Below are positions 545 through 19,697 of a stretch of 26,897 nt of DNA, in pieces. The notes under the pieces are model-generated. The model saw only the letters and a list, made by a program, of their open reading frames with translations. It had not been told where the DNA came from and did no database searches. Origin of the DNA: a virus; the IMG/VR virus record IMGVR_UViG_3300010233_000149, positions 997-27,893 of that record; one strand, given 5' to 3'. Positions within the stretch are counted from its first letter, which is position 1, and the number at the start of each line of letters is the position of its first letter. The position numbers were made by a program, and so were the translations under genes.

Positions 545-811
545 ATGGATGCTCGTGAAAAGCACATTCTCCGTGTTCGTTTTCACAGGTTCATGCTCAT
601 GTTGTTGAGCATGAATGATGCAAAGGCCACTATCCGCTCCGAGAAAATACTCGGAGAATGGGTGTACAGGTATAGGTTGCAAACAACAGACGGGGATCGT
701 GTGGATTTTCTAGTAGACAGAACTGCTCTTTGTACTCACAAAGACCCGTTTTCCATAGCCAGGTTGGCTGCGGCTAACATGCGCCGACAACTTGGCCTGG
801 CACCTACTTGA
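545..811 (+). CDS. Hypothetical protein, 88 aa
   Basis: A small basic protein starting 1 nt after the stop of the Toprim gene, so probably cotranscribed and coupled with it. It has a basic N-terminal helix (REKHILRVRFHRFM), a probable beta-hairpin (WVYRYRLQTTDGDRVDFLVD) and a C-terminal helix. I recognise no family. Its stop codon TGA overlaps the -35 box of the promoter for the tail chaperone gene, so the operon boundary lies here. Confidence 0.65.
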   Translation: MDAREKHILRVRFHRFMLMLLSMNDAKATIRSEKILGEWVYRYRLQTTDGDRVDFLVDRTALCTHKDPFSIARLAAANMRRQLGLAPT

Positions 812-835
812 CTTTCCTTCCATCTGTGGTACACT
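808..835 (+). promoter_or_regulatory. Promoter, TGTGGTACACTT class, before tail chaperone gene
   Basis: TTGACT (808-813), a 16-nt spacer and TACACT (830-835). The 12-mer TGTGGTACACTT at 825-836 recurs at 1637, 3629 (one base changed) and 10220. Predicted transcription starts near 842, giving a leader of about 30 nt with an AAGAGG ribosome site before the ATG at 872. Confidence 0.7.
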
Positions 836-871
836 TCTAGTTCGTTCAGTTACTTTAACAAGAGGTTCCTC

Positions 872-1618: not shown

Positions 1619-1647
1619 TTGCATATGAAACAACCGTGTGGTACACT
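1619..1647 (+). promoter_or_regulatory. Promoter before the sigma factor gene
   Basis: TTGCAT (1619-1624), a 17-nt spacer and TACACT (1642-1647) inside TGTGGTACACTT (1637-1648). The ATG at 1663 is 15 nt after the -10 box. The untranslated leader would therefore be about 9 nt with no Shine-Dalgarno sequence. Confidence 0.65.
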
Positions 1648-1662
1648 TAACCCAGTTATACG

Positions 1663-2487
1663 ATGGTCCATTCGCCATTTAAGTTTATCTGCCACCTCGA
1701 ATTTCGTCGTGGGTCTTACGTTAAAAAAGCACTGGCATACGTTCTCCCTGACTTCCCCTCATGCCCCGTAACCCATGATCTACGATCCCTCGTCCCCAGT
1801 TCCTCGAAGAACCTTCTCGAAACTCCCGACAACCTAACTCGCGAACAAGAGAGTGTCGTCTTTTTGTATCTGAATTTCTGTAAGCAACAGTACAACAAGA
1901 ACCTGAAGTTGCTTACTCGCAACAAGGTGGAGACTCCTGCTCTATCTCTGTGGTTACAGAAGATAAGACACATGGAAGAGTACATTTGTCGAAACAACAT
2001 TCGTCTGGTTACGGCTCTGGTCGGTAGGTATGCCTACCACAATGCGGCATTGTCATGGAACGAAGCTGTATCTGTGGGACAGGAGGCTCTGCTTAATGCC
2101 ACTCACAGGTTTGACGTGTCACGTGGATTCAAGTTCAGCACATACGCTTCGACAGCAATACTACGTGACCTGAGCAAAGCCAATGTAAAGCAGCAAACCC
2201 ATGGGAAAAGATTTTCTCAGATGCCCGAAACGTTTCCAGAAGGAGACAAGGCCATCACTGTAGAAGATAAATCGGATACGGAAGAATCCTTGGACATGTT
2301 GCGAAAAGTATTGGCCGAAAACACGGCAGGTTTGAACGAACACGAGAAGATAGTTATCTCTCACCGATTCTCTGACACTAAGTGTACGCTGGACGATGTG
2401 GCTGCAATCATCGGTCTGACCCGCGAGAGGGCGAGACAGATACAGGTGTCGGCGTTGGCGAAGCTGCGGAAGGTCATGGTCCAATGA
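1663..2487 (+). CDS. Phage-encoded sigma-70 family RNA polymerase sigma factor
   Basis: 274 aa. Region 2 spans about residues 106-172 (NNIRLVTALVGRY, then SVGQEALLNATHRFD, then RGFKFSTYASTAILRDLSKA). Region 4 spans about 222-270, with a helix-turn-helix LDDVAAIIGLTRERARQIQ. Region 1.1 is absent and the linker between the domains is short, as in compact phage and alternative sigma factors. It should bind host core polymerase and direct it to phage promoters. In region 2.4 the usual Trp-Trp after FSTYA is replaced by Ser-Thr, which suggests changed -10 recognition or melting. The gene is preceded by a promoter of the TGTGGTACACTT class, so it may act on itself. Its stop overlaps the next start (ATGA). 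No Shine-Dalgarno is visible before ATG 1663. Confidence 0.9.
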   Translation: MVHSPFKFICHLEFRRGSYVKKALAYVLPDFPSCPVTHDLRSLVPSSSKNLLETPDNLTREQESVVFLYLNFCKQQYNKNLKLLTRNKVETPALSLWLQKIRHMEEYICRNNIRLVTALVGRYAYHNAALSWNEAVSVGQEALLNATHRFDVSRGFKFSTYASTAILRDLSKANVKQQTHGKRFSQMPETFPEGDKAITVEDKSDTEESLDMLRKVLAENTAGLNEHEKIVISHRFSDTKCTLDDVAAIIGLTRERARQIQVSALAKLRKVMVQ

Positions 2488-3611: not shown

Positions 3612-3639
3612 TTGACTTCCCCCGCATATGTGATACACT
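3612..3639 (+). promoter_or_regulatory. Promoter, TGTGATACACTT class
   Basis: TTGACT (3612-3617), a 16-nt spacer and TACACT (3634-3639), within TGTGATACACTT (3629-3640). It drives the lipoprotein gene with a leader of about 33 nt carrying AGGAG (3666-3670) before ATG 3679. Confidence 0.7.
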
Positions 3640-3678
3640 TGCGTGACTGACAATATCATTCACACAGGAGTATCGCTT

Positions 3679-5397: not shown

Positions 5398-6131
5398 TAC
5401 GGTTACTTCAAAAAACAATGCCTGATGGTCTATCGGAAGTCAAATCTGACTCTGTTCGGCTTGCGTTTGCTGACCCTCCCTACAACATAGGTGTGAAGTA
5501 TGAGGATGACCCCACTCAAGATAACTTGACAGCGGGAGACTACAGGTACTGGTGTTGTCGGATACTTGCCGATATGCGTAGATTACTTTGTCCAGGCGGT
5601 GTTCTCTTCTGGTTATGCCCGTCATCACACATGGATTTTATTCCTCATTTTCTCAGTTCCTATATCGGCACCTGTGTGTACAGAATTGTCAAACAGGAAA
5701 CTTTTGCGCAGTACCAGCAGAAGACACTTACCGACGACTATCGAATGCTTTTCTGCTACCAAAAGCCCGGTGGTCCCCTTGTCTTCAACCCCGACGCGAT
5801 CCGCATCCCGTCCGCTCGGCAGGAAAAGTACAACGACAAACGCGCCAACCCAGACGGTCGCGTCCCAGGCCAGGTGTGGAATATTCGCCGGCTTCAAGGC
5901 ACGTCCATCGACCATGTTCCATGGCACCCCGCTCAACTTCCTCCGGAATTGTTGCTGAGGATCATCAAGGGATGGTCGAACCCAGGCGACTTGTGCCTAG
6001 ACGCTTTCGCGGGCAGCGGTAGCTTCGGTGTGGCCTGCCATAGAACCGGTCGCAACTGTGTGATGATCGAACAGAGTCCACTGTATTGTGAGAACATTCA
6101 GAACAGGATTGATGCACTGGAGAAGGTATGA
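5394..6131 (+). CDS. Orphan DNA methyltransferase, N6-adenine, beta-class order
   Basis: 245 aa, starting at GTG 5394 in a GTGA overlap with the previous gene. Motif IV, DPPYNIG, lies near the N-terminus (about residues 27-33). HPAQLPPELLLRIIKGW and the SAM-binding motif I, LDAFAGSGSFGVAC, lie near the C-terminus. IV-before-I order with DPPY is the beta class of amino-methyltransferases, usually adenine-N6. No restriction endonuclease gene is adjacent, so the likely role is protecting phage DNA from host restriction or marking it for regulation or packaging. Recognition site unknown. Confidence 0.88.
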   Translation: MIRLLQKTMPDGLSEVKSDSVRLAFADPPYNIGVKYEDDPTQDNLTAGDYRYWCCRILADMRRLLCPGGVLFWLCPSSHMDFIPHFLSSYIGTCVYRIVKQETFAQYQQKTLTDDYRMLFCYQKPGGPLVFNPDAIRIPSARQEKYNDKRANPDGRVPGQVWNIRRLQGTSIDHVPWHPAQLPPELLLRIIKGWSNPGDLCLDAFAGSGSFGVACHRTGRNCVMIEQSPLYCENIQNRIDALEKV

Positions 6132-6331
6132 AGCAACAGCACAGCGACAGGGACGTTCTGAAACTGGTCAAGATCATCGACAACAACGGCACCAATCTCA
6201 CGAAGAGCGAGATTACTTTCATTGCCGGAATCATCGATAGCGGGCAGACGGAATTCTCCATTGCCGAAATGCTACGAGCCGTCAGGATTCACCAGAAGCG
6301 AGTCGTCAATGGCAGACCGGAGGAGGATTGA
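6128..6331 (+). CDS. Hypothetical protein, 67 aa
   Basis: A small helical protein coupled to the methyltransferase by an ATGA overlap (6128-6131). The sequence ends AVRIHQKRVVNGRPEED. No family recognised. GGAGG in its last codons serves as the ribosome site of the next gene. Confidence 0.65.
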   Translation: MKQQHSDRDVLKLVKIIDNNGTNLTKSEITFIAGIIDSGQTEFSIAEMLRAVRIHQKRVVNGRPEED

Positions 6332-6333
6332 AC

Positions 6334-6978
6334 ATGACACCAGTACCACAAACACGACATGCCTACTACCGAGTCCGAGTCATCGCACTGGCCAAGCCTA
6401 GTGTGAATGACGCCGGACTGGTTCAACAACTGCGCAACTATGACAATTTTGCGGCAGCGTCGGTGGGCAACGATGGTGAACCGCGACAGCCGATCCTTTG
6501 GGATCGTACTGCATTGCTTGTCACAATGAAGAACTTCAGCGCCCTGCATCCGGATTACTTCCTTATCGTCACTACCACCAGCGAACGAGATGTCCTACTT
6601 CCAGTGCAATGGTACTTCTACAAAGGTGGCTACATTCCCGCCAATATTATTGAATACAACGGAGCATCGTTCGTGGATTACCTGAGTAAGCCGAATCCGA
6701 ATCTAAATGATCTTCCCGCCGATGACGAGTGGGAACTTCGCACGAAACAGAGCAACCATTCCATGTCCAAGGAAAAGTTCTGGGTCATGGAGGTGGTAAA
6801 GAGTCCGATCAAGCAACTGTTGAAACGAATCTTCCCTGTGGACGAAACTGTGCTGATCGAAGTCTGGAACGCCGGCCATGAAGATAAGTTCGTTGCTCCG
6901 ATGCGGCGTGAGCACCTGCTTTATTGGCTTACATCCAAAATCACGCCTCCAAGTAACCCTCAACCATCCATCGGATAA
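6334..6978 (+). CDS. Hypothetical protein, 214 aa
   Basis: Start chosen at ATG 6334, about 9 nt after GGAGG; the TTG at 6328 overlapping the previous stop leaves only 3 nt. The protein is soluble and mixed alpha/beta, without signal peptide or membrane segment. It includes DYFLIVTTTSERDVLLPVQW and a C-terminal MRREHLLYWLTSKITPPSN. I do not recognise a family. It lies in the methyltransferase operon. Confidence 0.65.
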   Translation: MTPVPQTRHAYYRVRVIALAKPSVNDAGLVQQLRNYDNFAAASVGNDGEPRQPILWDRTALLVTMKNFSALHPDYFLIVTTTSERDVLLPVQWYFYKGGYIPANIIEYNGASFVDYLSKPNPNLNDLPADDEWELRTKQSNHSMSKEKFWVMEVVKSPIKQLLKRIFPVDETVLIEVWNAGHEDKFVAPMRREHLLYWLTSKITPPSNPQPSIG

Positions 6979-7937: not shown

Positions 7938-9863
7938 ATGATTACTGCCGGCGTCACGTTCGGGGGCGGGGGAAGTGGACCGCCTGGACGGCCCGGTAGA
8001 GATGGTGTTGGTATCGCCGGGAAACCCGGCGCAGATGGTGAGTCTTCCCGCATCCCCGGTCCAAAGGGAGAAACAGGACAGGGTTTCCGGTGGGTTAAGA
8101 CCTACGACGCAAAACAAATCTACGAACCCTACGACGTTCTCCATTACCAGGGCGACTGCTATACTTGTGTCCGAGCCTGTCGCGGCATTGTTCCCACGAC
8201 GAAAGAGTACTGGAACATAGTTGCGTTCCAGGGTCTTCGCGGACCCAACGGGGCGAGCGGCACCAACGGTCTTCCCGGTCTGCACTGGACCGGTCCATGG
8301 TCCATCGCCAGCACGTATAGCATCAATGACGGTGTGTCATTCAGCGGCTCATCCTACATCGCCATCCTGGCCGGCGTAGGCAACGAACCAGACACCTCAC
8401 CCTTGTTCTGGAACATTCTGGCGCAGGGTGGCAGCGGTGGAGGTGGATCGACCGCGATCATATCCACCGGGGATTTACTCACTATCGGCAGTACAGGTCA
8501 GCAGACACGTCTTCCTGTTGGATCGACCGGACAGGTGCTGACCGTCAGTAGCACAAGCTCAACGGACCTTGTGTGGGCAACTCCCACAATGGGAGGAAAC
8601 GGCACGGTGACTTCCGTTGGCCTATCTCTGCCGGCTGTGTTCACCGTCAGTGGATCACCCGTCACCAGCACTGGAACGCTTTCTGCTGTGTTCACCAACG
8701 AATCCAGTACATTTGTATTCGCCGGTCCACCTGCTGGTAGTGCTGCGGCACCTCCGACGTTCCGTAATCTCTCCACATCGGATATTTCCAATTATCCGGC
8801 AACTCCAGGCACCGTGACATCTGTTGACTTATCGATGCCGTCCATCTTCACGGTCAGCAACAACCCAGTAACTACCGCAGGAACGTTGACCGTGGCGTTG
8901 AATACTGAAGCGAGCACGTTGGTATTCGCCGGCCCTTCCACGGGCGCTGCGGCAGTGCCGACGTTCCGTCGTCTATCCACGTCGGATATTGCGGGATTCA
9001 GTGGAGGATCAGGGACCGTTACTTCTGTGGCGTTGACTATGCCTAGTACTCTTTTTGTCAGTACAGGAGGGACGCCGATAACGACGAGTGGGACACTAAC
9101 ACCTGCTCTGGTCGGACTTGCCACATCAACACATGTTGTGTTCGCCAGTGCTGCGTCTGGGTCGGGACTTCCTACTCCAGTGTTCCGCGCATTAGCTCAG
9201 GCCGACATAAATTTTGTCTTGGCTGCGAGTAAAGTATCCACAGGGACATTTACTTCTGTTGCAGGTGATCCTGCTATTACAGGTCAAGGGCAGGGATGGT
9301 TCAATAGTCAAAAACTTCAGGCGCGTCTTTGTTACGTGAATGATGGTTTGGGTGATATAAATGTTGGTACAATGAGTCTGATGCTTTTTGATTTGGCTAC
9401 CGATGAAACAATTACGGCCAATACAGTACTTGCTGACTATTCTAACTATCTTCTGACAGTAGCAGATTCTTCCGCAGTCGGTAGCTACGTAGGGATAGTT
9501 GGTCGAGTCATAAGAATAAAAGCGTTTCTTGATTTTGAAATATCTCTTCTCAACTCCTTTACTTTTAACGTTAGTTATGATGACAATGCAGTTGCTACGA
9601 TAACTACATCAAGTATCAGCGGAGCGTCAGGAACTGCTCTTCTCGACATAACTATAATCACCACTGGAACAAACACAGTGCGTGCCACGTGGTCTACTGT
9701 GTCCAGCAATGGTTCTGTTATAGCTACAACCGCTTCTGTAAAAGACACAACACTGGATGAAACCGTTTCGTCTGTAGCTAACATACTTTTTACTGTTAGT
9801 GCTGCATCGACACAAGTTACTGACACCTGCACAATAAAGTCCATGACTATAGAAGGGTTCTAA
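7938..9863 (+). CDS. Tail fibre with collagen-like and carbohydrate-binding-like modules
   Basis: 641 aa. Residues 14-48 and 97-115 are Gly-x-Y collagen-like repeats, which trimerise. Residues 50-95 and 115-163 are two modules with the W-Y--D-V-Y-G--Y---W spacing of CBM5/12-type chitin/sugar-binding domains. After a Gly/Ser linker (163-171) come three repeats of about 67 residues beginning GTVTSV, with PVT(S/T)-GTL, VFAGP and FR-LSTSDI, typical of phage tail-fibre shafts. The last about 215 residues form a different domain encoded by more A+T-rich DNA, probably the receptor-binding tip. No chaperone or autocleavage domain seen. It lies directly before the glycan cassette. Confidence 0.85.
   Translation: MITAGVTFGGGGSGPPGRPGRDGVGIAGKPGADGESSRIPGPKGETGQGFRWVKTYDAKQIYEPYDVLHYQGDCYTCVRACRGIVPTTKEYWNIVAFQGLRGPNGASGTNGLPGLHWTGPWSIASTYSINDGVSFSGSSYIAILAGVGNEPDTSPLFWNILAQGGSGGGGSTAIISTGDLLTIGSTGQQTRLPVGSTGQVLTVSSTSSTDLVWATPTMGGNGTVTSVGLSLPAVFTVSGSPVTSTGTLSAVFTNESSTFVFAGPPAGSAAAPPTFRNLSTSDISNYPATPGTVTSVDLSMPSIFTVSNNPVTTAGTLTVALNTEASTLVFAGPSTGAAAVPTFRRLSTSDIAGFSGGSGTVTSVALTMPSTLFVSTGGTPITTSGTLTPALVGLATSTHVVFASAASGSGLPTPVFRALAQADINFVLAASKVSTGTFTSVAGDPAITGQGQGWFNSQKLQARLCYVNDGLGDINVGTMSLMLFDLATDETITANTVLADYSNYLLTVADSSAVGSYVGIVGRVIRIKAFLDFEISLLNSFTFNVSYDDNAVATITTSSISGASGTALLDITIITTGTNTVRATWSTVSSNGSVIATTASVKDTTLDETVSSVANILFTVSAASTQVTDTCTIKSMTIEGF
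8601..9209 (+). repeat. Three in-frame repeats of the tail-fibre shaft
   Basis: Units start at about 8601, 8808 and 9012 (207, 204 and about 198 nt). Each encodes GTVTSV, LS/LT-P, a short variable part, GTL, VFA-P/AS and a closing FR-L---DI. DNA identity between units is moderate, so they are diverged protein repeats rather than recent duplications. Confidence 0.8.
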
Positions 9864-9874
9864 GAAAGCCAAAC

Positions 9875-10198
9875 ATGAGTATTTTAATCACCAGCGGCGA
9901 GGACGCAGAGTCTGTAGACAAGGCAGAAGTATGGGTAGACATCCTTACTATCCCAGGTACTGTGGTTGTGGACTACATCATTCTCCTCAATGAAGGTGAC
10001 TTTTCTGGAATGTTCCGTTTGGTAGAAGGCGACAAGGAAAGTCCTGCCGCCCGCTTACCGTCCGGCGCAGGAGAACCAGGGCAGCGTCGATCTTCCGTTA
10101 CAATTCCATGTATCGGTTTTAGCGGTGGATCACTCCAAGTAAAGAAGATCAGTGGTGAGGGCAATGTAACCGGTCTCTGGGCTTGGGCCGGTAGATAG
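9875..10198 (+). CDS. Hypothetical protein, 107 aa, downstream of tail fibre
   Basis: Starts 11 nt after the fibre stop and is probably cotranscribed with it. The sequence is beta-rich (VVVDYIILLNEGDFSGMFRL, then GGSLQVKKI) and ends GLWAWAGR. Its position suggests a fibre accessory or attachment protein, but no family is recognised. The stop TAG overlaps the start of the next promoter region. Confidence 0.6.
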   Translation: MSILITSGEDAESVDKAEVWVDILTIPGTVVVDYIILLNEGDFSGMFRLVEGDKESPAARLPSGAGEPGQRRSSVTIPCIGFSGGSLQVKKISGEGNVTGLWAWAGR

Positions 10199-10201
10199 TG
10201 T

Positions 10202-10230
10202 TTGACCTACCCGTACTTCTGTGGTACACT
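10202..10230 (+). promoter_or_regulatory. Promoter for leaderless glycan cassette transcript
   Basis: TTGACC (10202-10207), a 17-nt spacer and TACACT (10225-10230), inside TGTGGTACACTT (10220-10231). The first ATG, 10237, is 6 nt after the -10 box, so the predicted transcription start coincides with the start codon. No Shine-Dalgarno could be transcribed. Confidence 0.75.
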
Positions 10231-10236
10231 TACCCC

Positions 10237-10929
10237 ATGGCCTACAAACTTACCCGTAATTACGTTGGCAAGGGTGGTACGCACGTCGCCACCGACTCGG
10301 AATTTTCTGTTGCGGTTCATAAGCTCGTCAGCCTCAAAACTCCTAGGAAGATCATCGAGACCGGCACCCATCTGGGTACTGGCACAACGAAGATCATTCT
10401 CAGTTCGCTGAAGGCTGCGGGCGTGACCGACGCTAAGTTCATCACCATGGAAGTGAACCCCGGTTGTTACTTCACAGCTAAGGCGAACAACGTCGGTGAG
10501 AACGTGGACTGTCGGCACGGCCTGTCCCTGCCTCTGTCTTCCATGCCAACGCGGGAGCATCTGAGACAGGTCTTTGCCAACGGAACCTTCGACGGAATCT
10601 GGTTGGACAATGATCCGCACCTCTGCGCCGACGGCTACTTCGGAGAGACCAACCACCTCGCCGAAGACGATCTCCTAGGGAAGGCTCTCACTGAGTTTGA
10701 CAACAAGCCTGACATGATCCTGCTCGATTCGGCCGGCCATCTGGGGTACATCGAATTCCTCTACTGCATAGACCGAATCAAGGCACCCTGTCTGATTGTT
10801 CTCGATGACACGCAGCACTGCAAGCACTACCGAAGTCTTCAGTACATGAAGGAGCACTTCGAGAAGTTCGAGATCATCGTGGAGTCGGATGAGAAGTTTG
10901 GGTTCTGTATTGCTGTGTACAAGCCATGA
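10237..10929 (+). CDS. SAM-dependent methyltransferase-like protein
   Basis: 230 aa from ATG 10237; the upstream in-frame GTG 10198 lies before the promoter and would not be transcribed from it. KIIETGTHLGTGTTKIILSS (about residues 37-56) is a glycine-rich SAM-binding loop. FDGIWLDND, DMILLDSAGHLGYIEF and CLIVLDDTQHCKHYRS give the acidic strand ends of a class I fold. The overall pattern is like methyltransferase-24/cephalosporin hydroxylase-type proteins found in sugar-modification clusters. It is first in a five-gene ATGA-coupled cassette, so its substrate is probably a sugar or glycan. Confidence 0.7.
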   Translation: MAYKLTRNYVGKGGTHVATDSEFSVAVHKLVSLKTPRKIIETGTHLGTGTTKIILSSLKAAGVTDAKFITMEVNPGCYFTAKANNVGENVDCRHGLSLPLSSMPTREHLRQVFANGTFDGIWLDNDPHLCADGYFGETNHLAEDDLLGKALTEFDNKPDMILLDSAGHLGYIEFLYCIDRIKAPCLIVLDDTQHCKHYRSLQYMKEHFEKFEIIVESDEKFGFCIAVYKP

Positions 10930-11627
10930 AATCCTTCAAACACGCTGGCAAAATCGGTGATCTGATCTATGCTCTTCCGGCGATACGAGAAGTCGTGTCT
11001 TGCAAGAAGAAAGCTGAATATGCAGATATTATTCTTTTGAAGAATCGCTTGGGACATCAATCGTTTCCAGCGGAGTTGGTCGTTCCTCTCCTGGAGATTC
11101 AACCTTTCATTGCTTCCATATCCATCGTGGATATGCAAGGAACCTCCAAGACAGGCCCGGATACGGACTACGACTTTATCCCATTTGCACAACACAGGTT
11201 AGTATTCTCTCAACATCTGATTCAGACGATGGGAGAAACTATTGGTCTGCTGGATGTTCAATACACACCGTGGTTGATTTGTGAACCGAACCCGGTGGCG
11301 GAAGTGGTAGTGACGCGAAGATCACAACAACAGGGAGGTGGTGATTGGACATCTGTGTATAAGGAAGTGCAACTAAATAAGGCAATATTCCTTGGCACAG
11401 AAGAAGAACATCTCGAATTCGAGAGACTCTTTGGAAAGATTTGGCATCGTAAGACTAAAGATTTTCTTGAGGCGGCGCAAATTATTCAAGGTTGTAATCA
11501 ATACATAGGTGATCCTACGGCACTATATGCCATCGCGGTCGGTTTGGGTAAAAAGGTTCCGGTGGTCAATGGGATGTTGCCGAACGTCTACTACCCGACC
11601 AACAGGAAACCGAGTGTGTACGCATGA
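10926..11627 (+). CDS. GT9 (heptosyltransferase)-like protein 1
   Basis: 233 aa, ATGA overlap with the previous gene. The N-terminus, AGKIGDLIYALPAIRE, and the C-terminal QYIGDPTALYAIAVGLGKKV are the two hallmark regions of family 9 GT-B glycosyltransferases such as ADP-heptose:LPS heptosyltransferases. It is shorter than the usual 320-350 aa, with a reduced middle. The DNA is more A+T-rich than the flanking genes. It may transfer a sugar to a lipopolysaccharide-like or virion glycan, or may be a binding-only relative. Confidence 0.7.
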   Translation: MKSFKHAGKIGDLIYALPAIREVVSCKKKAEYADIILLKNRLGHQSFPAELVVPLLEIQPFIASISIVDMQGTSKTGPDTDYDFIPFAQHRLVFSQHLIQTMGETIGLLDVQYTPWLICEPNPVAEVVVTRRSQQQGGGDWTSVYKEVQLNKAIFLGTEEEHLEFERLFGKIWHRKTKDFLEAAQIIQGCNQYIGDPTALYAIAVGLGKKVPVVNGMLPNVYYPTNRKPSVYA

Positions 11628-12358
11628 GCAAACGCTACTGCCATTCTGGGAAGTGGGGTGACTGTATATGGGCACTACCGTCTCTACGGGCACTTGGTGC
11701 CGGACATCTTCGTCTCGTCAACAACTATTCCTTCTTTCCCTTGAACAAAGAGAACGTGGAGACTATTGCTCCGCTGCTGCGACTTCAGCCGTACATCCAA
11801 TCGGTCGAGTATGCCGAACTGGCATCCCTCCCGCCAGATATCACAGACCTGAACGTCTGGTGGATGGGTCGAGGCATCGTCCCCGGTCTCAGCATCTGCG
11901 GCCACGTGCTCGAACGATTCGGTCTGCCACTGACAGAGCAGGACACCGCATGGATCACTGTCCCCGAACCCACCCCCGTGTCCAAGTACATCTTTTGCCG
12001 TACATCCGCATGGCAGAACCACAACCAGAACATGCCATGGCCCTCCATCGTGGATCAGTACGGCAAGGAAGCAGTCTTCATCGGTCATAAGAGTGAGTAC
12101 TACGACTTCTGCGCCAAGTTCCCAATTCGCAAGGTGGACTACTGGCCGACGAAAGGATTTCTAGAGATTGCACAGGCTATGGCTGCTGCGGAATTCATCT
12201 TCTGCAATCAGTCCGGTCCTCACGCCGTCGCGGAATCGATGAAGAAGCCTTTGCTGCTGGAAGTATGCCCTGGGGAACCAAGTGTGGTGTACGAGCGGCT
12301 GGGTGCTGCGTATGCTTGGAAAGAAACGGTGGACCTGACTAAACTGGAGATTCTATGA
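11624..12358 (+). CDS. GT9 (heptosyltransferase)-like protein 2
   Basis: 244 aa, ATGA overlap on both sides. HSGKWGDCIWALPSLRAL at the N-terminus and IFCNQSGPHAVAESMKKPLL near the C-terminus match the GT9 pattern, with the SGPHAVAE donor-site segment better preserved than in the preceding paralogue. It is also shorter than classical family members. Two neighbouring GT9-like genes in a phage suggest either successive sugar additions or a two-subunit enzyme. Confidence 0.72.
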   Translation: MSKRYCHSGKWGDCIWALPSLRALGAGHLRLVNNYSFFPLNKENVETIAPLLRLQPYIQSVEYAELASLPPDITDLNVWWMGRGIVPGLSICGHVLERFGLPLTEQDTAWITVPEPTPVSKYIFCRTSAWQNHNQNMPWPSIVDQYGKEAVFIGHKSEYYDFCAKFPIRKVDYWPTKGFLEIAQAMAAAEFIFCNQSGPHAVAESMKKPLLLEVCPGEPSVVYERLGAAYAWKETVDLTKLEIL

Positions 12359-12954
12359 ACTTCGTTAAAGGTGCTCAGTTCTATGAAGACCTGTGGATCA
12401 TTCAAAATGAAATGGCCCCGAAGCAAGGCGTCTTCGTTGAGGTTGGTGCAGAAGGCGGCATTCAACTCTCTAACACTATCCTATTCGAGGAGTATCTAGG
12501 ATGGCGCGGTCTGCTGATTGAAGCCAATCCCGAAGTGATCGAAGAACTTCGACACAATCGTCCATTGGCCAAGGTCCATCATTGTGCCATCGGCACTGAC
12601 CCTACCCAGGATTTCTACATTTGTGACAACAGTCGATCTTGCGGCGCTCTTGGCCGGCCGGTGATCGGCGGTCGGCCAGTGAAAGTCCCAGTACAACGGT
12701 TGGACACAGTGCTAGATACTTACGGCATTCAGAAGATCGATCTCCTATCTCTCGACACTGAAGGGTCAGAACTGGAAGTCTGGAACACGATGGATCACAA
12801 CAAGTACAAACCCGGTGTGGTCGTCATCGAGTGGAACACCTGTCATCTGCCCAGTAATGAGGACACGATCCTGAAAGTGTTCGCCGAACTTCCTTACACA
12901 TTCGTTCACAAGACGGAAGCCAACCTGATCTTTGTTCGCAACCCGGAGTGCTGA
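12355..12954 (+). CDS. FkbM-family methyltransferase 1
   Basis: 199 aa, ATGA overlap with the previous gene. GVFVEVGAEGGIQLSNTILF (about residues 25-44) is the SAM-binding region; GLLIEANPEVIEEL, KIDLLSLDTEGSELEVW and VVVIEWNT complete the FkbM pattern of an O-methyltransferase usually acting on sugars. It shares long blocks with the leftward gene at 18662-19252 (VPVQRL/VPVKRL, ALGRP, DHNK, IEWNT, ANLIFVR), so the phage carries two paralogues. Likely role: methylating a sugar added by the neighbouring transferases. Confidence 0.85.
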   Translation: MNFVKGAQFYEDLWIIQNEMAPKQGVFVEVGAEGGIQLSNTILFEEYLGWRGLLIEANPEVIEELRHNRPLAKVHHCAIGTDPTQDFYICDNSRSCGALGRPVIGGRPVKVPVQRLDTVLDTYGIQKIDLLSLDTEGSELEVWNTMDHNKYKPGVVVIEWNTCHLPSNEDTILKVFAELPYTFVHKTEANLIFVRNPEC

Positions 12955-12955
12955 T

Positions 12956-13735
12956 ATGAAAGAGAAATTCACAATCTTAATGGCGACGAACGATCAGGAG
13001 AAGTTCCAGGTCGCTTCACGTTTCTGGTCGCACTCGATGGCAGACATGCCCATCAACTTCATGCCGATAGTCAATCCGAGTAATTTGCCGGAAGCCTATA
13101 ACGCAGCATTAGGTAGAGTAATGACTGAATACGTCATTGTGTCCCATCACGATGCTTTTCCTTTGCAGGCCGAAGGATATGTCATAGGACATAAACTCGC
13201 CAAACACATGGAGGATGTGGATGTGGCTGGCTTCGTCGGTAGTAGTCATCTTTCCACTCCTCTGTGGTGTGGTGGTGGGCCTGCGAGGAACTACGGAGTA
13301 GTCTGTACACCCTCAGAGGCAAAAATATGGGCAAACATATGGGGTATGCCAGCAAAGCGAGTTCTCGGAATGAGAACCTTGGATGGATTTTGTTTAATAT
13401 TTAAGACTGAAGTGTTGCGGAAGATCGGTTTTGATCCGCAGTTCGCCTGGCATTTCTACGACCATGACGTTGTGTCATCGGCCCTCGAAGCCGGTTACAC
13501 AACCGCCTGCCTTAACGACGTGTTTATGACTCATCTTTCTGCCGGCCGGTTCGACTCGGAGTGGGCACGGACAACACCGAAATTTGCGGCGAAGTGGAGG
13601 GGGAGATGTGATTTCTACGACCCTTCCATCGTGATGAACCCCGTAATCATCAAGGCGGAACACTGTACCACTCTGCTCATGCGGTTGCAGGAGATGGTGG
13701 CCATGGTGCCGGATGAGGTTTCGGCCTTGGCATAA
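12956..13735 (+). CDS. GT-A-fold glycosyltransferase-like protein, second copy
   Basis: 259 aa from ATG 12956, 1 nt after the FkbM stop; an upstream in-frame start at 12932 overlaps that gene and is less likely. FTILMATNDQEKFQVASRFW, EAYNAALGRVMTEYVIVSHH with the SHHD site, PAKRVLGMRTLDGFCLIFKT and FYDHDVVSSALEAGY parallel the gene at 4507-5397 block by block. It is the last gene of the glycan cassette. A cytoplasmic sugar transfer is likely; donor and acceptor are unknown. Confidence 0.75.
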   Translation: MKEKFTILMATNDQEKFQVASRFWSHSMADMPINFMPIVNPSNLPEAYNAALGRVMTEYVIVSHHDAFPLQAEGYVIGHKLAKHMEDVDVAGFVGSSHLSTPLWCGGGPARNYGVVCTPSEAKIWANIWGMPAKRVLGMRTLDGFCLIFKTEVLRKIGFDPQFAWHFYDHDVVSSALEAGYTTACLNDVFMTHLSAGRFDSEWARTTPKFAAKWRGRCDFYDPSIVMNPVIIKAEHCTTLLMRLQEMVAMVPDEVSALA

Positions 13736-13756
13736 ACTCGATAAACTCCCTATAAT
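13727..13756 (+). promoter_or_regulatory. Promoter giving a leaderless GTG-start mRNA
   Basis: TTGGCA (13727-13732), an 18-nt spacer and consensus TATAAT (13751-13756) within CCCTATAATTC. The GTG start at 13762 follows the -10 box by 5 nt, so transcription should begin at or within 1-2 nt of the start codon. Confidence 0.7.
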
Positions 13757-13761
13757 TCAAC

Positions 13762-14358
13762 GTGAGCACTCGACACTGGCTATTGTTCTGGGCATTCACA
13801 GCGGCGTTCCTTTGGGGTTGCGGTTCGCCCACGGATCGTGTTCAGACGCAACACACCACTGCACCGTCGGTCATCGTGGACTGCCGCGACGATACGCTAC
13901 AGTTCTCCGCGAATATGTGGGCAACTGAAGTTGCTCGTCGCTTCCCGAACAGTGTGGTACTCTTACTTCACGGTGGAAACAAGACGCCAGACGAATGGTA
14001 TGTGGAAGACAGTCCCAACGCAGGGTATGGTCGAACCTGTACACCGGTGGAGATATTTCTGGCAAAGGAAAGGGAGGAATATCCAGGCCGCACTTTGGTT
14101 TTGATAAGTTGCAACCCTTTACATTTGGCCCTTCATGGATTTGCTAATGTCTGGTATTCTCCTGATGAGACCTGGGTCGTGCCCGACCGGGCGCTGACGA
14201 AAGAGATGATGAGTGAGTCACGTTTTGTTGATCGAAAACTTGACGATCCAGAAGATGATATTCATTTTGACGAACCGCCAACGACAGTGGGACAGACGCG
14301 ATGGGTGACTGATCCTGGAGTGACCGGAAATGTCTATGAATTTCTGAGTGCAGAATGA
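13762..14358 (+). CDS. Lipoprotein with HG/SC motifs (possible clan CD-like fold)
   Basis: 198 aa; GTG is the only plausible start. Residues 5-20 are hydrophobic and end FLWGC, a somewhat atypical lipobox with Cys20. The mature part has SVVLLLHGG (His70) and TLVLISCN (Cys117), each at the end of a hydrophobic strand, followed by VWYSPDETWVVPD. A His-Gly and a Ser-Cys at successive strand ends is the dyad layout of clan CD cysteine peptidases (caspase, gingipain, CHAT). This is pattern recognition, not a family match. It has its own promoter and faces the recombinase tail to tail with 1 nt between stops. Confidence 0.6.
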   Translation: MSTRHWLLFWAFTAAFLWGCGSPTDRVQTQHTTAPSVIVDCRDDTLQFSANMWATEVARRFPNSVVLLLHGGNKTPDEWYVEDSPNAGYGRTCTPVEIFLAKEREEYPGRTLVLISCNPLHLALHGFANVWYSPDETWVVPDRALTKEMMSESRFVDRKLDDPEDDIHFDEPPTTVGQTRWVTDPGVTGNVYEFLSAE

Positions 14359-14359
14359 A

Positions 14360-15184
14360 TCATCGGCCAAGTAATGCGTGAGTCGCCTTCAGCCGTTTAG
14401 TGTCGCAGTGTACATACACAGCCGTAGTCTCCGCTGATCCGTGGCCCATCATCTCAGTGACGTAACGCAAATCAGCGCCGCCACTCACAAGGTGTGTTGC
14501 GAAACTGTGGCGAAGCATGTGTGGGTGAACCTTCTTTACGATCCCTGCATTCCTTCCGTGCTTCCTCACCAACCGATAAACGTCCACCCTTGACAGTGGC
14601 CGACCAGCGGCAGACGTGAACAAGGTGGGACCGTCTGAACGGCAAGAGTCTATGTATCGTTTCACCGCGCCGGCGCAGAAGTTGTTGATAGGCACCTGGC
14701 GATCCTTCCCGCCCTTGCCTTGTCGCACATGAATCAGACGCTCCCTCAGTTCCACGTCTTCCACCTTAAGCGAACACAACTCCGTAGCCCTGAGTCCGGC
14801 ACCATACAAAAGTTCTAGGACCGCTTGGTCGCGGACCCCGATGTCCGTCTGGTCATCTGGGCAGTATGTGAGCTTCACACAGTCTGCTTCGTTTAGGAAG
14901 TCTGGGAGGCGTTTACCCATTCGGGGGCTTTCAACAAGTGTCGAAACGTCTCCACGGCCTATAAAACGCAGGTAGGCACGGATGGAGGATGCTCGCCTGG
15001 CGACCGACCGAGACCCCTGGCCGGCCTTGCTGAGGGACGCCAACCACGACTGGATCATGGATAGGTCCGTCGCCGCTACGCCCCCGCAAAAGGCCGTGTA
15101 GGCTTCCAGATCGGCCCTGTAAGCATCGACCGTTGCCGCCGACAACCCGCATTCTATCCGAAGATGGTTGATATAGCTTTCCAT
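14360..15184 (-). CDS. Xer-like tyrosine recombinase/integrase
   Basis: 274 aa from ATG 15184 (279 from ATG 15199). The N-terminal core-binding domain is SAM-like (LSAATVDAYRADLEAY). The catalytic domain has all the expected residues: Arg in GAGLRATEL, Lys in QGKGGKDR, His/Arg in HMLRHSFATH, His in MMGHGS and the nucleophile Tyr in AVYVHCD. Size and sequence are closer to XerC/XerD than to lambda integrase. It could integrate the phage at a dif-like or other site, or resolve genome multimers. I prefer 15184 because a -10 box ends 6 nt before it. It is the only leftward gene in the left 16.8 kb. Confidence 0.92.
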   Translation of the reverse strand: MESYINHLRIECGLSAATVDAYRADLEAYTAFCGGVAATDLSMIQSWLASLSKAGQGSRSVARRASSIRAYLRFIGRGDVSTLVESPRMGKRLPDFLNEADCVKLTYCPDDQTDIGVRDQAVLELLYGAGLRATELCSLKVEDVELRERLIHVRQGKGGKDRQVPINNFCAGAVKRYIDSCRSDGPTLFTSAAGRPLSRVDVYRLVRKHGRNAGIVKKVHPHMLRHSFATHLVSGGADLRYVTEMMGHGSAETTAVYVHCDTKRLKATHALLGR

Positions 15185-15190
15185 AACTTT

Positions 15191-15218
15191 AAGATACATC
15201 GGATGGCTGGATATGCAA
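15191..15218 (-). promoter_or_regulatory. Promoter for leaderless recombinase mRNA
   Basis: On the minus strand TTGCAT (15218-15213), a 16-nt spacer and TATCTT (15196-15191). ATG 15184 begins 6 nt after the -10 box. Its -35 box lies next to that of the rightward promoter at 15220, so the two are back to back and could be co-regulated. Confidence 0.5.
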
Positions 15219-15219
15219 G

Positions 15220-15247
15220 TTGACTTTTTCTTTTGGGAATGTATACT
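15220..15247 (+). promoter_or_regulatory. Promoter for leaderless small gene
   Basis: TTGACT (15220-15225), a 16-nt spacer and TATACT (15242-15247). ATG 15254 begins 6 nt after the -10 box. Longer in-frame starts (TTG 15233, ATG 15239) lie on or before the -10 box. Confidence 0.65.
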
Positions 15248-15253
15248 GGGACC

Positions 15254-15565
15254 ATGACCCTGACGAAGATCGAATTCCGTTTTCCCATGGGGGTGTTTTT
15301 GAGTGCCGAACGGGACAGAGGCAACGATATAATCGTACTCGTGGAATTCAACGAACCCATGGGCACAGGAACTGCCCTACGGTATCAGTCACTACCTTTC
15401 GACCCCAACGGGGACATGAACACCCTCTCACCGATCATCGGCGACATCTGCCGCGCCGCTACTGGCCAACCCACGGTCGATCCAAATCTCTTCGGCAAGG
15501 TGATGAAGGCTCTCAGCCGCTTCAAGCCGGTGGAAAGTGTCGTGACTGCTGCGGCCCTCCTATAA
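15254..15565 (+). CDS. Hypothetical protein, 103 aa
   Basis: Start ATG 15254 chosen from the promoter position. A soluble protein with two beta segments (KIEFRFPMGVFLS, IIVLVEFNEP) and a C-terminal helix rich in Val/Ala. No family recognised. It is divergent from the recombinase, a common place for its regulator or directionality factor, but no helix-turn-helix is evident. Its stop lies inside the -10 box of the next gene. Confidence 0.6.
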   Translation: MTLTKIEFRFPMGVFLSAERDRGNDIIVLVEFNEPMGTGTALRYQSLPFDPNGDMNTLSPIIGDICRAATGQPTVDPNLFGKVMKALSRFKPVESVVTAAALL

Positions 15566-15566
15566 T
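15561..15566 (+). promoter_or_regulatory. -10-like TATAAT before small gene
   Basis: CCTATAATAA matches the CCTATAAT context of the promoters at 7687 and 13727, but no acceptable -35 box is visible 16-18 nt upstream. If active, transcription would begin just before AGGAGA (15575-15580). Confidence 0.35.
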
Positions 15567-15587
15567 AAAGTAACAGGAGATTTGTCT

Positions 15588-15821
15588 ATGGATACGAAAC
15601 CTACACCGTCGCCTCTTCGCCCGTCGATTGCCACCAACGGTAGCGGCAATGTAAACCTGGCCAAGGCCAAGGACTACTCTGTCAATGCCACAAAAGTTCA
15701 GCCGTACTACAACGTCACAGAGCAGGCTCAGGTAAAGGCAATGGCCAAAGCCCCTGCCAAGACCGATACGACTGGTGGCGGCGGTGGACAAGGCGCACAG
15801 CGGGTTCGCCGGCTGGTTTAA
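15588..15821 (+). CDS. Hypothetical protein, 77 aa
   Basis: ATG 15588 is 7 nt after AGGAGA. The protein is Lys/Ala/Thr-rich, ends with a Gly run and a basic tail (GAQRVRRLV) and is probably largely disordered. No family recognised. It is a possible virion or DNA-associated minor protein by composition only. Confidence 0.55.
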   Translation: MDTKPTPSPLRPSIATNGSGNVNLAKAKDYSVNATKVQPYYNVTEQAQVKAMAKAPAKTDTTGGGGGQGAQRVRRLV

Positions 15822-15833
15822 CCGGGTGCTTAA

Positions 15834-16085
15834 ATGGTGTGCATCTGCCGTCTGATCTTTGATGGTCCGTCCAATGCGAAAGAGGCATTCTACAATCTGT
15901 CGAAAACACAGCCGGTCGCTGCATTACTATCTCTTCATGCCGCTGATGGGATTCATGCGGGCGGTAAAAGGGTCGTATCAGTTCTTAGCAGCCCTGATCC
16001 ACTCAAACAGTCAGAAGTACGAGAATGGATGGAAACAAGACCGTGGTTGGGACTTGCTGGCTTTACTCTCGTCGTCCACGGATAG
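15834..16085 (+). CDS. Hypothetical protein, 83 aa
   Basis: Starts 12 nt after the previous stop, with a weak GGGTG ribosome site. The sequence (IFDGPSNAKEAFYNLSKTQP, then EVREWMETRPWLGLAGFTLV) looks like a normal soluble protein. A competing frame, 15859-16374, covers the same DNA but reads as a His/Arg/Ser-rich peptide, so I prefer this frame. No family recognised. Confidence 0.5.
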   Translation: MVCICRLIFDGPSNAKEAFYNLSKTQPVAALLSLHAADGIHAGGKRVVSVLSSPDPLKQSEVREWMETRPWLGLAGFTLVVHG

Positions 16086-18661: not shown

Positions 18662-19252
18662 TTAAGGAGTGGTGGTGCGAACGAAGATCAAATTGGCAAT
18701 CGTCTGGTGAACTTCCTTGTATGGAAGTTTCGAGAAGACTTCCCTCACGGCCTTGTCATTGTAGGGCAGACCGGTGGTGTTCCACTCGATGATGACAATC
18801 GACGGAGTATGTTTGTTGTGGTCCAACGTGGACCATGCGTCCAATTCCGATCCTTCCACATCAATCGACAACAGATCAATATGCCCGATCCCGTGGGCAT
18901 CTAGTACATCGCCCAGCCGCTTCACAGGCACCTTGACTGGCCGGCCTTGGGACGGTCGTCCAAGAGCAGAAATAGGTGTTTGCGGGTTGATGTAGAACAT
19001 CTGAGTGGGATCAGACCCAATGGCACATGATTCGATCTTGCAGTTTGGACGGTTCCGTTGAAGGAAGGGAAGGAGATCAGGATTGGCTTCAATCAGAAGT
19101 CCGGTCCATCCCATTCGCTCGAACGACAGAGTGTTCGAGCCGCCTCCACCATGCTCTGCACCGACTTCTACGAACACACCATTACTTGGGAGTTGGAGGT
19201 TGCCGACCATCCACACGTCTTCGCCGCACTGGGAACTGGGTTGAAATTGCAT
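18662..19252 (-). CDS. FkbM-family methyltransferase 2
   Basis: 196 aa from ATG 19252, 8 nt after the previous stop; the longer reading from 19348 overlaps that gene heavily. GVFVEVGAEHGGGGSNTLSF is the SAM-binding region, with GLLIEANPDLLPFL, HIDLLSIDVEGSELDAW and IVIIEWNT completing the FkbM pattern. It is paralogous to 12355-12954 but lies on the other strand in the tail operon, away from the glycan cassette. A probable sugar O-methyltransferase. No strong ribosome site is visible before the start. Confidence 0.85.
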   Translation of the reverse strand: MQFQPSSQCGEDVWMVGNLQLPSNGVFVEVGAEHGGGGSNTLSFERMGWTGLLIEANPDLLPFLQRNRPNCKIESCAIGSDPTQMFYINPQTPISALGRPSQGRPVKVPVKRLGDVLDAHGIGHIDLLSIDVEGSELDAWSTLDHNKHTPSIVIIEWNTTGLPYNDKAVREVFSKLPYKEVHQTIANLIFVRTTTP

Positions 19253-19575: not shown

Positions 19576-19588
19576 AAAGTCTCTCCAG

Positions 19589-19663
19589 TAGCGGGTGTAG
19601 GATTTGAACCTACGGTCTCCGGGATATGAACCCGACGAGATGACCTGGCTTCTCTAACCCGCC
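19589..19663 (-). tRNA. tRNA-Met(CAU), initiator (fMet) type
   Basis: A full 75-nt cloverleaf on the minus strand. Acceptor GGCGGGT pairs with ACCCGCT (G1-U72 wobble). The D stem is GAGA/TCTC. The anticodon stem is TCGGG/CCCGG with loop TTCATAT and anticodon CAU. The variable loop is AGACC, the T arm GTAGG-TTCAAAT-CCTAC, and the discriminator is A73. G29-G30-G31 paired to C39-C40-C41 and the A11:U24 pair are initiator hallmarks, as is a weak first pair (C1/A72 in E. coli, G/U here). The CCA end is not encoded (CTG follows A73). It sits between the tail hub and the holin-like gene. Confidence 0.93.
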
Positions 19664-19668
19664 ACAGT

Positions 19669-19697
19669 ATTATACCACGAAAAACGGCCCTCGTCCA
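19669..19697 (-). promoter_or_regulatory. Extended -10 promoter for the tRNA
   Basis: On the minus strand TGGACG (19697-19692), a 17-nt spacer and consensus TATAAT (19674-19669) preceded by TGG, an extended -10. G1 of the tRNA comes 5 nt after the -10 box, so transcription should start at or very near the mature 5' end. Confidence 0.65.

Follow-up and report, generated by a model that had tools for sequence, protein, structure and literature searches.

Promoters abutting start codons point to leaderless mRNAs at several genes of a phage

At four genes of the phage studied here, a promoter stands so close to the start codon that transcription would begin on or beside it. This raises the question of whether these genes are expressed from leaderless mRNAs and, if so, whether they form a coordinated alternative initiation programme together with the phage's own initiator tRNA, as the initial annotation had proposed. 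The window, i.e., the whole stretch of DNA that was analyzed (26,897 nucleotides), corresponds to bases 997-27893 of a 32,334-base viral record. It codes for lambda-like tail genes (tape measure, tail protein), a tail assembly chaperone, a sigma factor (regions 2 and 4), endonuclease VII, a DNA methyltransferase, glycosyl- and methyltransferases, a tyrosine integrase and one tRNA-Met. Gene 10237 heads a series of genes, overlapping or separated by short gaps, that extends to 13735 and includes an FkbM methyltransferase and a glycosyltransferase. Within the FkbM-type methyltransferase gene, the DNA at 12499-12940 (plus strand) is 65% identical over ~440 bases to 18676-19111 (minus strand) in opposite orientation, and on the basis of this identity the two look like diverged copies. 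No close relative was found among phage records or viral contigs, the latter searched with the proteins of 10237, 15254 and 13762, the 1371-aa tail protein and the integrase; searches of known-phage proteins with 10237 and 13762 returned no match. As pointers to the host, the methyltransferase and integrase gave generic matches only, and scanning genomes for the leaderless promoter yielded 29 scattered matches across unrelated phyla, among which there was no clear prophage relative.

The description of a -10 box 5 or 6 nt before each of the four starts, with a -35 box 16-18 nt further up, was confirmed by direct reading (Table 1). The leaderless spacing was scored with a generic sigma-70 weight matrix and compared with all window positions, resulting in p values of 0.0001 for both 13762 and 15254, 0.0004 for 10237 and 0.004 for 15184, whose promoter matches the consensus at only 3/6 and 4/6 positions; none of the remaining scored gene starts in the window had p <0.015. 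A Shine-Dalgarno (SD)-like 4-mer 3-12 nt upstream is absent at all four starts, and no better promoter was found within 120 nt of any of them. Most likely, the +1 of a sigma-70-type promoter coincides with the first base of the start codon at genes 10237, 13762 and 15254, and probably also at 15184. With the +1 at this position the mRNA would be leaderless, having no 5' UTR and no SD site, and its 5'-terminal AUG or GUG would be recognized by a ribosome with fMet-tRNA.

Table 1. Promoters, starts and genes discussed in the text (window coordinates).
Feature	Position	Strand	Description
Promoter and start 10237	10202..10239	+	TTGACC(10202-10207)-17-(TGTGG)TACACT(10225-10230)-6-ATG
Promoter and start 13762	13727..13764	+	TTGGCA(13727-13732)-18-TATAAT(13751-13756)-5-GTG
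Promoter and start 15254	15220..15256	+	TTGACT(15220-15225)-16-TATACT(15242-15247)-6-ATG
Weak promoter and integrase start 15184	15182..15218	-	TTGCAT(15218-15213)-16-TATCTT(15196-15191)-6-ATG
230-aa protein gene	10237..10929	+	Family not assigned; methyltransferase-like by eye
198-aa lipoprotein-like protein	13762..14358	+	MSTRHWLLFWAFTAAFLWGC signal peptide by eye; homologues in L036, L124/G1
Tyrosine recombinase (phage integrase), 274 aa	14360..15184	-	PF00589, PF02899
103-aa protein	15254..15565	+	Family search: no match
Leadered promoter, gene 872	808..836	+	Phage consensus; 36-nt gap; SD GAGGT
Leadered promoter, gene 3679	3612..3640	+	Phage consensus; 39-nt gap; SD AGGAG
Sigma-factor gene 1663 promoter	1619..1647	+	TTGCAT-17-(TGTGG)TACACT; 15-nt gap; without SD
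tRNA-Met(CAT), initiator hallmarks	19588..19663	-	GGG:CCC anticodon stem, A11:U24, weak G1:U72
tRNA promoter	19669..19697	-	TGGACG-17-TATAAT; ends 5 nt before tRNA position 1

A consensus scan of 9800-16000 returned 5 promoter-like sites compared with 5.1 in shuffles, and 3 of the 5 sit 5-6 nt upstream of a start; with promoter-like sites at the shuffle rate in this region, the significance of the four cases rests on position and score. This background rate, the weakness of the 15184 promoter and its p of 0.004 among ~33 genes would be in keeping with boxes lying next to start codons by accident. Such an accident is nevertheless highly improbable, given p values of approximately 0.0001-0.0004 at three genes and the replication of the arrangement in two relatives, whose selection took no account of spacing, and in the peak of a viral promoter sample, both described below. 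Folding of the first 40 nt revealed no difference marking the leaderless genes, and no operator-like repeats were found between the integrase gene and 15254. A moron (independent accessory unit) was also considered; own promoters are present but own terminators are not, terminator-like sites in 9800-16000 occurring at shuffle level and away from gene ends, and this reading was therefore dropped.

The start of 13762 is forced by an in-frame TAA within its -10 box, which closes the frame upstream, and it is also backed by a signal-peptide-like N-terminus. The start choice of the other three genes is partly assumed because in-frame codons lie upstream (GTG 10198 for 10237; TTG 15233 and ATG 15239 for 15254; ATG 15199 for 15184). 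In the sequence TAGTG, GTG 10198 overlaps the stop codon of the gene before it, an arrangement suited to coupled re-initiation. This overlap and the in-frame ATG codons at 15239 and 15199, along with simple promoter-like sites being no commoner than in shuffles, lend some weight to the alternative that main translation proceeds from longer upstream transcripts, through operon read-through or in-frame starts, with the near-start promoters adding little. It is rather unlikely, however, because all four starts lack an SD-like site, 13762 cannot begin upstream of its own -10 box, and the integrase gene and 15254 share a divergent gap of 69 bp in which their promoters stand back to back, with no better promoter nearby; additionally, the 6-nt spacing recurs in a relative at a start whose frame has no open stretch upstream (G1 32830). 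Under the preferred leaderless reading, 13762 would start on GUG, which is documented as a leaderless start in actinobacteria (PMC9031893). Recognition of leaderless GUG may be weaker outside this group, which is a point against the leaderless reading of 13762.

A promoter pattern taken from the phage (TTGAC...TGTGRTACACTT), with 3 matches in the window and 0 in shuffles, was used to fetch viral contigs. Promoter sequence, irrespective of spacing, was the basis on which the contigs L036 and L124 were chosen. L036, a distant relative, has in common with the phage the 4507 glycosyltransferase, the 13762 protein and endonuclease VII, and it carries TTGACT-17-TGG-TACACT-6-ATG before an endonuclease VII gene. 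The sole viral match of a narrower pattern was L124 (full contig, G1), which encodes a 13762 homologue; here TTGACT-16-TGG-TACACT-6-ATG precedes a DUF6899 gene, an in-frame TAG lying shortly before the start, and in a second case TTGACT-17-TGG-TATACT-6-ATG precedes an endonuclease VII gene. Across the three phages, promoters scoring at least 12 have an ORF start 5-7 nt downstream in 7/24 cases, compared with a mean of 0.66 and a maximum of 5 in 5000 shifted controls; one of the seven, G1 10350 (GTG), is probably spurious. With regard to the spacing among relatives the picture is mixed: a distance of 6 nt is found again at other genes in both L036 and G1, whereas at 13762, the sole comparable gene, the spacing is not conserved. 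Neither L036 nor G1 has a leaderless 13762 homologue, the G1 copy having a GGAG site, and the trait is therefore not conserved gene by gene; no homologues of 10237 and 15254 were found for a spacing comparison. The endonuclease VII genes with leaderless layout are located at 5648-6211 (minus strand) of L036 and 6107-6442 (minus strand) of L128, and their leaderless layout in both relatives suggests that such genes travel with their own promoter. Relative G1 also contains a tRNA-like gene with anticodon TTA (L128 15278-15347, minus strand), called a stop-codon tRNA by ARAGORN, which is adjoined by a second short tRNA-like gene at 15364-15420 (Rfam).

The same spacing was seen in a sample of 91 distinct promoters of the phage type from viral contigs. 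Seven ATG starts lie at 5-7 nt (5 of them at exactly 6), compared with 1 at 0-4 nt and 2 at 8-12 nt, and those outside 0-12 nt are mostly more than 18 nt away; the p value of the 5-7 nt peak under a shift null is 0.0005. An SD-like site accompanies 0/7 of the starts at 5-7 nt vs. 34/46 of those at 18-60 nt. Such bimodal distances would be expected from two initiation modes, one with the start at the leaderless spacing and one with enough room upstream of it for an SD site. Combined, the boxes, the spacing, the absence of SD sites and the recurrence of 6 nt, both in the two distant relatives and elsewhere among viral contigs, are the sequence-based parts of the argument, and they support the predicted leaderless expression of the four genes.

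The contrasting group of genes with longer leaders and good SD sites (872, 3679, 7753 and 15588) was found as stated in the initial annotation, the -10 box lying 36, 39, 37 and 21 nt before the start, respectively, with SD sequences GAGGT/AGGAG. Absent from that list was gene 1663, with a 15-nt gap and no SD site; this gene (1663-2487, plus strand) encodes the phage sigma factor with regions 2 and 4, and its own promoter is of the phage consensus type. The 10237 promoter has the consensus that is also found at 872 and 3679, both of them leadered, so the leaderless and leadered groups are not set apart at the level of transcription. No shared promoter feature separating the two groups was found, and the promoters of 13762, 15254 and 15184 have no single motif in common.

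These observations bear on the proposed coordinated programme, in which the phage initiator tRNA would raise fMet-tRNA and thereby selectively boost the leaderless gene set. That the phage has its own initiator tRNA appears correct, judging from the hallmarks of its tRNA-Met and from similar phage tRNAs: the anticodon stem contains three G:C pairs, the purine11:pyrimidine24 pair is A11:U24, and the 1:72 pair is a G1:U72 wobble and not the usual C1:A72. The tRNA matches tRNA-Met genes annotated in many phages, one of them annotated as tRNA-fMet. A link to the tRNA is plausible because an increase in fMet-tRNA is reported to give a strong boost to leaderless translation, lambda cI being an example, but only a slight one to canonical translation (PMC9031893). 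Even so, the programme is unlikely to exist as proposed, because one promoter class drives leadered and leaderless genes alike, the counterparts of 13762 in the two relatives lack the leaderless layout, and no initiator tRNA was found in the 34.8 kb of G1 (possibly incomplete) despite at least two leaderless-type genes there. Additionally, similar tRNAs often occur in large phages, where the tRNA has other likely uses, and the four genes are tied by no shared regulator or motif. The promoter of the tRNA gene itself is also closely placed (p 0.0005, weight matrix), and on the unrelated contig L034 (1916-2024) TTGACA-18-TACACT-6 precedes an initiator-like tRNA-Met. With promoters ending 5-6 nt before the tRNA, such tRNAs would have almost no 5' leader, and RNase P would possibly not be needed for the phage tRNA, whose promoter abuts position 1; in the archaeon Nanoarchaeum equitans, which is RNase P-free, leaderless tRNAs have been a subject of discussion (PMC10100707). 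The idea that phage tRNAs are generally leaderless was rejected, as the -10 distances of viral initiator tRNAs vary widely and few are at 5-7 nt. It is very unlikely that the phage tRNA, with its abutting promoter, serves to favor the phage's own leaderless mRNAs.

Leaderless genes of this kind are already known from lambda cI, PY54 cI/cro and the -10-motif genes of Deinococcus. In the telomere phage PY54, the cI and cro mRNAs were found to be leaderless by RACE (PMC4488713); as with the integrase gene and 15254, the promoters abut the starts of two neighboring divergent genes in a temperate phage, but the PY54 genes are repressors in an immunity region, whereas here an integrase and a 103-aa protein are involved and the leaderless 5' ends are predicted from sequence. 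The lambda cI mRNA, a model for fMet-tRNA-dependent initiation (PMC9031893), likewise begins at its AUG without an SD site; the present case differs in that no repressor was identified among the leaderless genes and in that several genes are concerned, one with GUG. In Deinococcus-Thermus, TACACT is the commonest -10 motif and lies about 6-7 bp upstream of the ORF (PMC12340547), and TA-led genes occur across bacteria (PMC3160421). The likeness to these systems extends to TACACT itself (10237, L036, L124), to its distance and to the coexistence of SD-led and -10-led genes in one genome, whereas the phage has clear -35 boxes and the genes concerned are phage and not cellular genes; the Deinococcus likeness is a parallel in layout and not evidence of the host. 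Gene 90 of mycobacteriophage Adephagia is predicted to be leaderless (PMC11373665), also in a temperate phage and from promoter position, but it is one gene only and the host is actinobacterial.

The favored reason for the arrangement is that short, self-contained transcription units would be read by a sigma-70-type holoenzyme and would serve accessory or lysogeny-type genes, namely the integrase, its divergent neighbor, the lipoprotein, the glycosyl/methyltransferase run and, in the relatives, endonuclease VII; lambda cI and PY54 cI/cro would be comparable cases. Leaderless translation in phages is usually discussed via a few repressor genes; the present analysis suggests that in a phage group several genes of one phage, with differing functions, use it. 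The uniform 6-nt spacing from -10 box to ATG would also mark true start codons and thereby aid annotation. With an initiator tRNA in the same genome, the published effect of fMet-tRNA on leaderless mRNAs would be testable in a natural setting.
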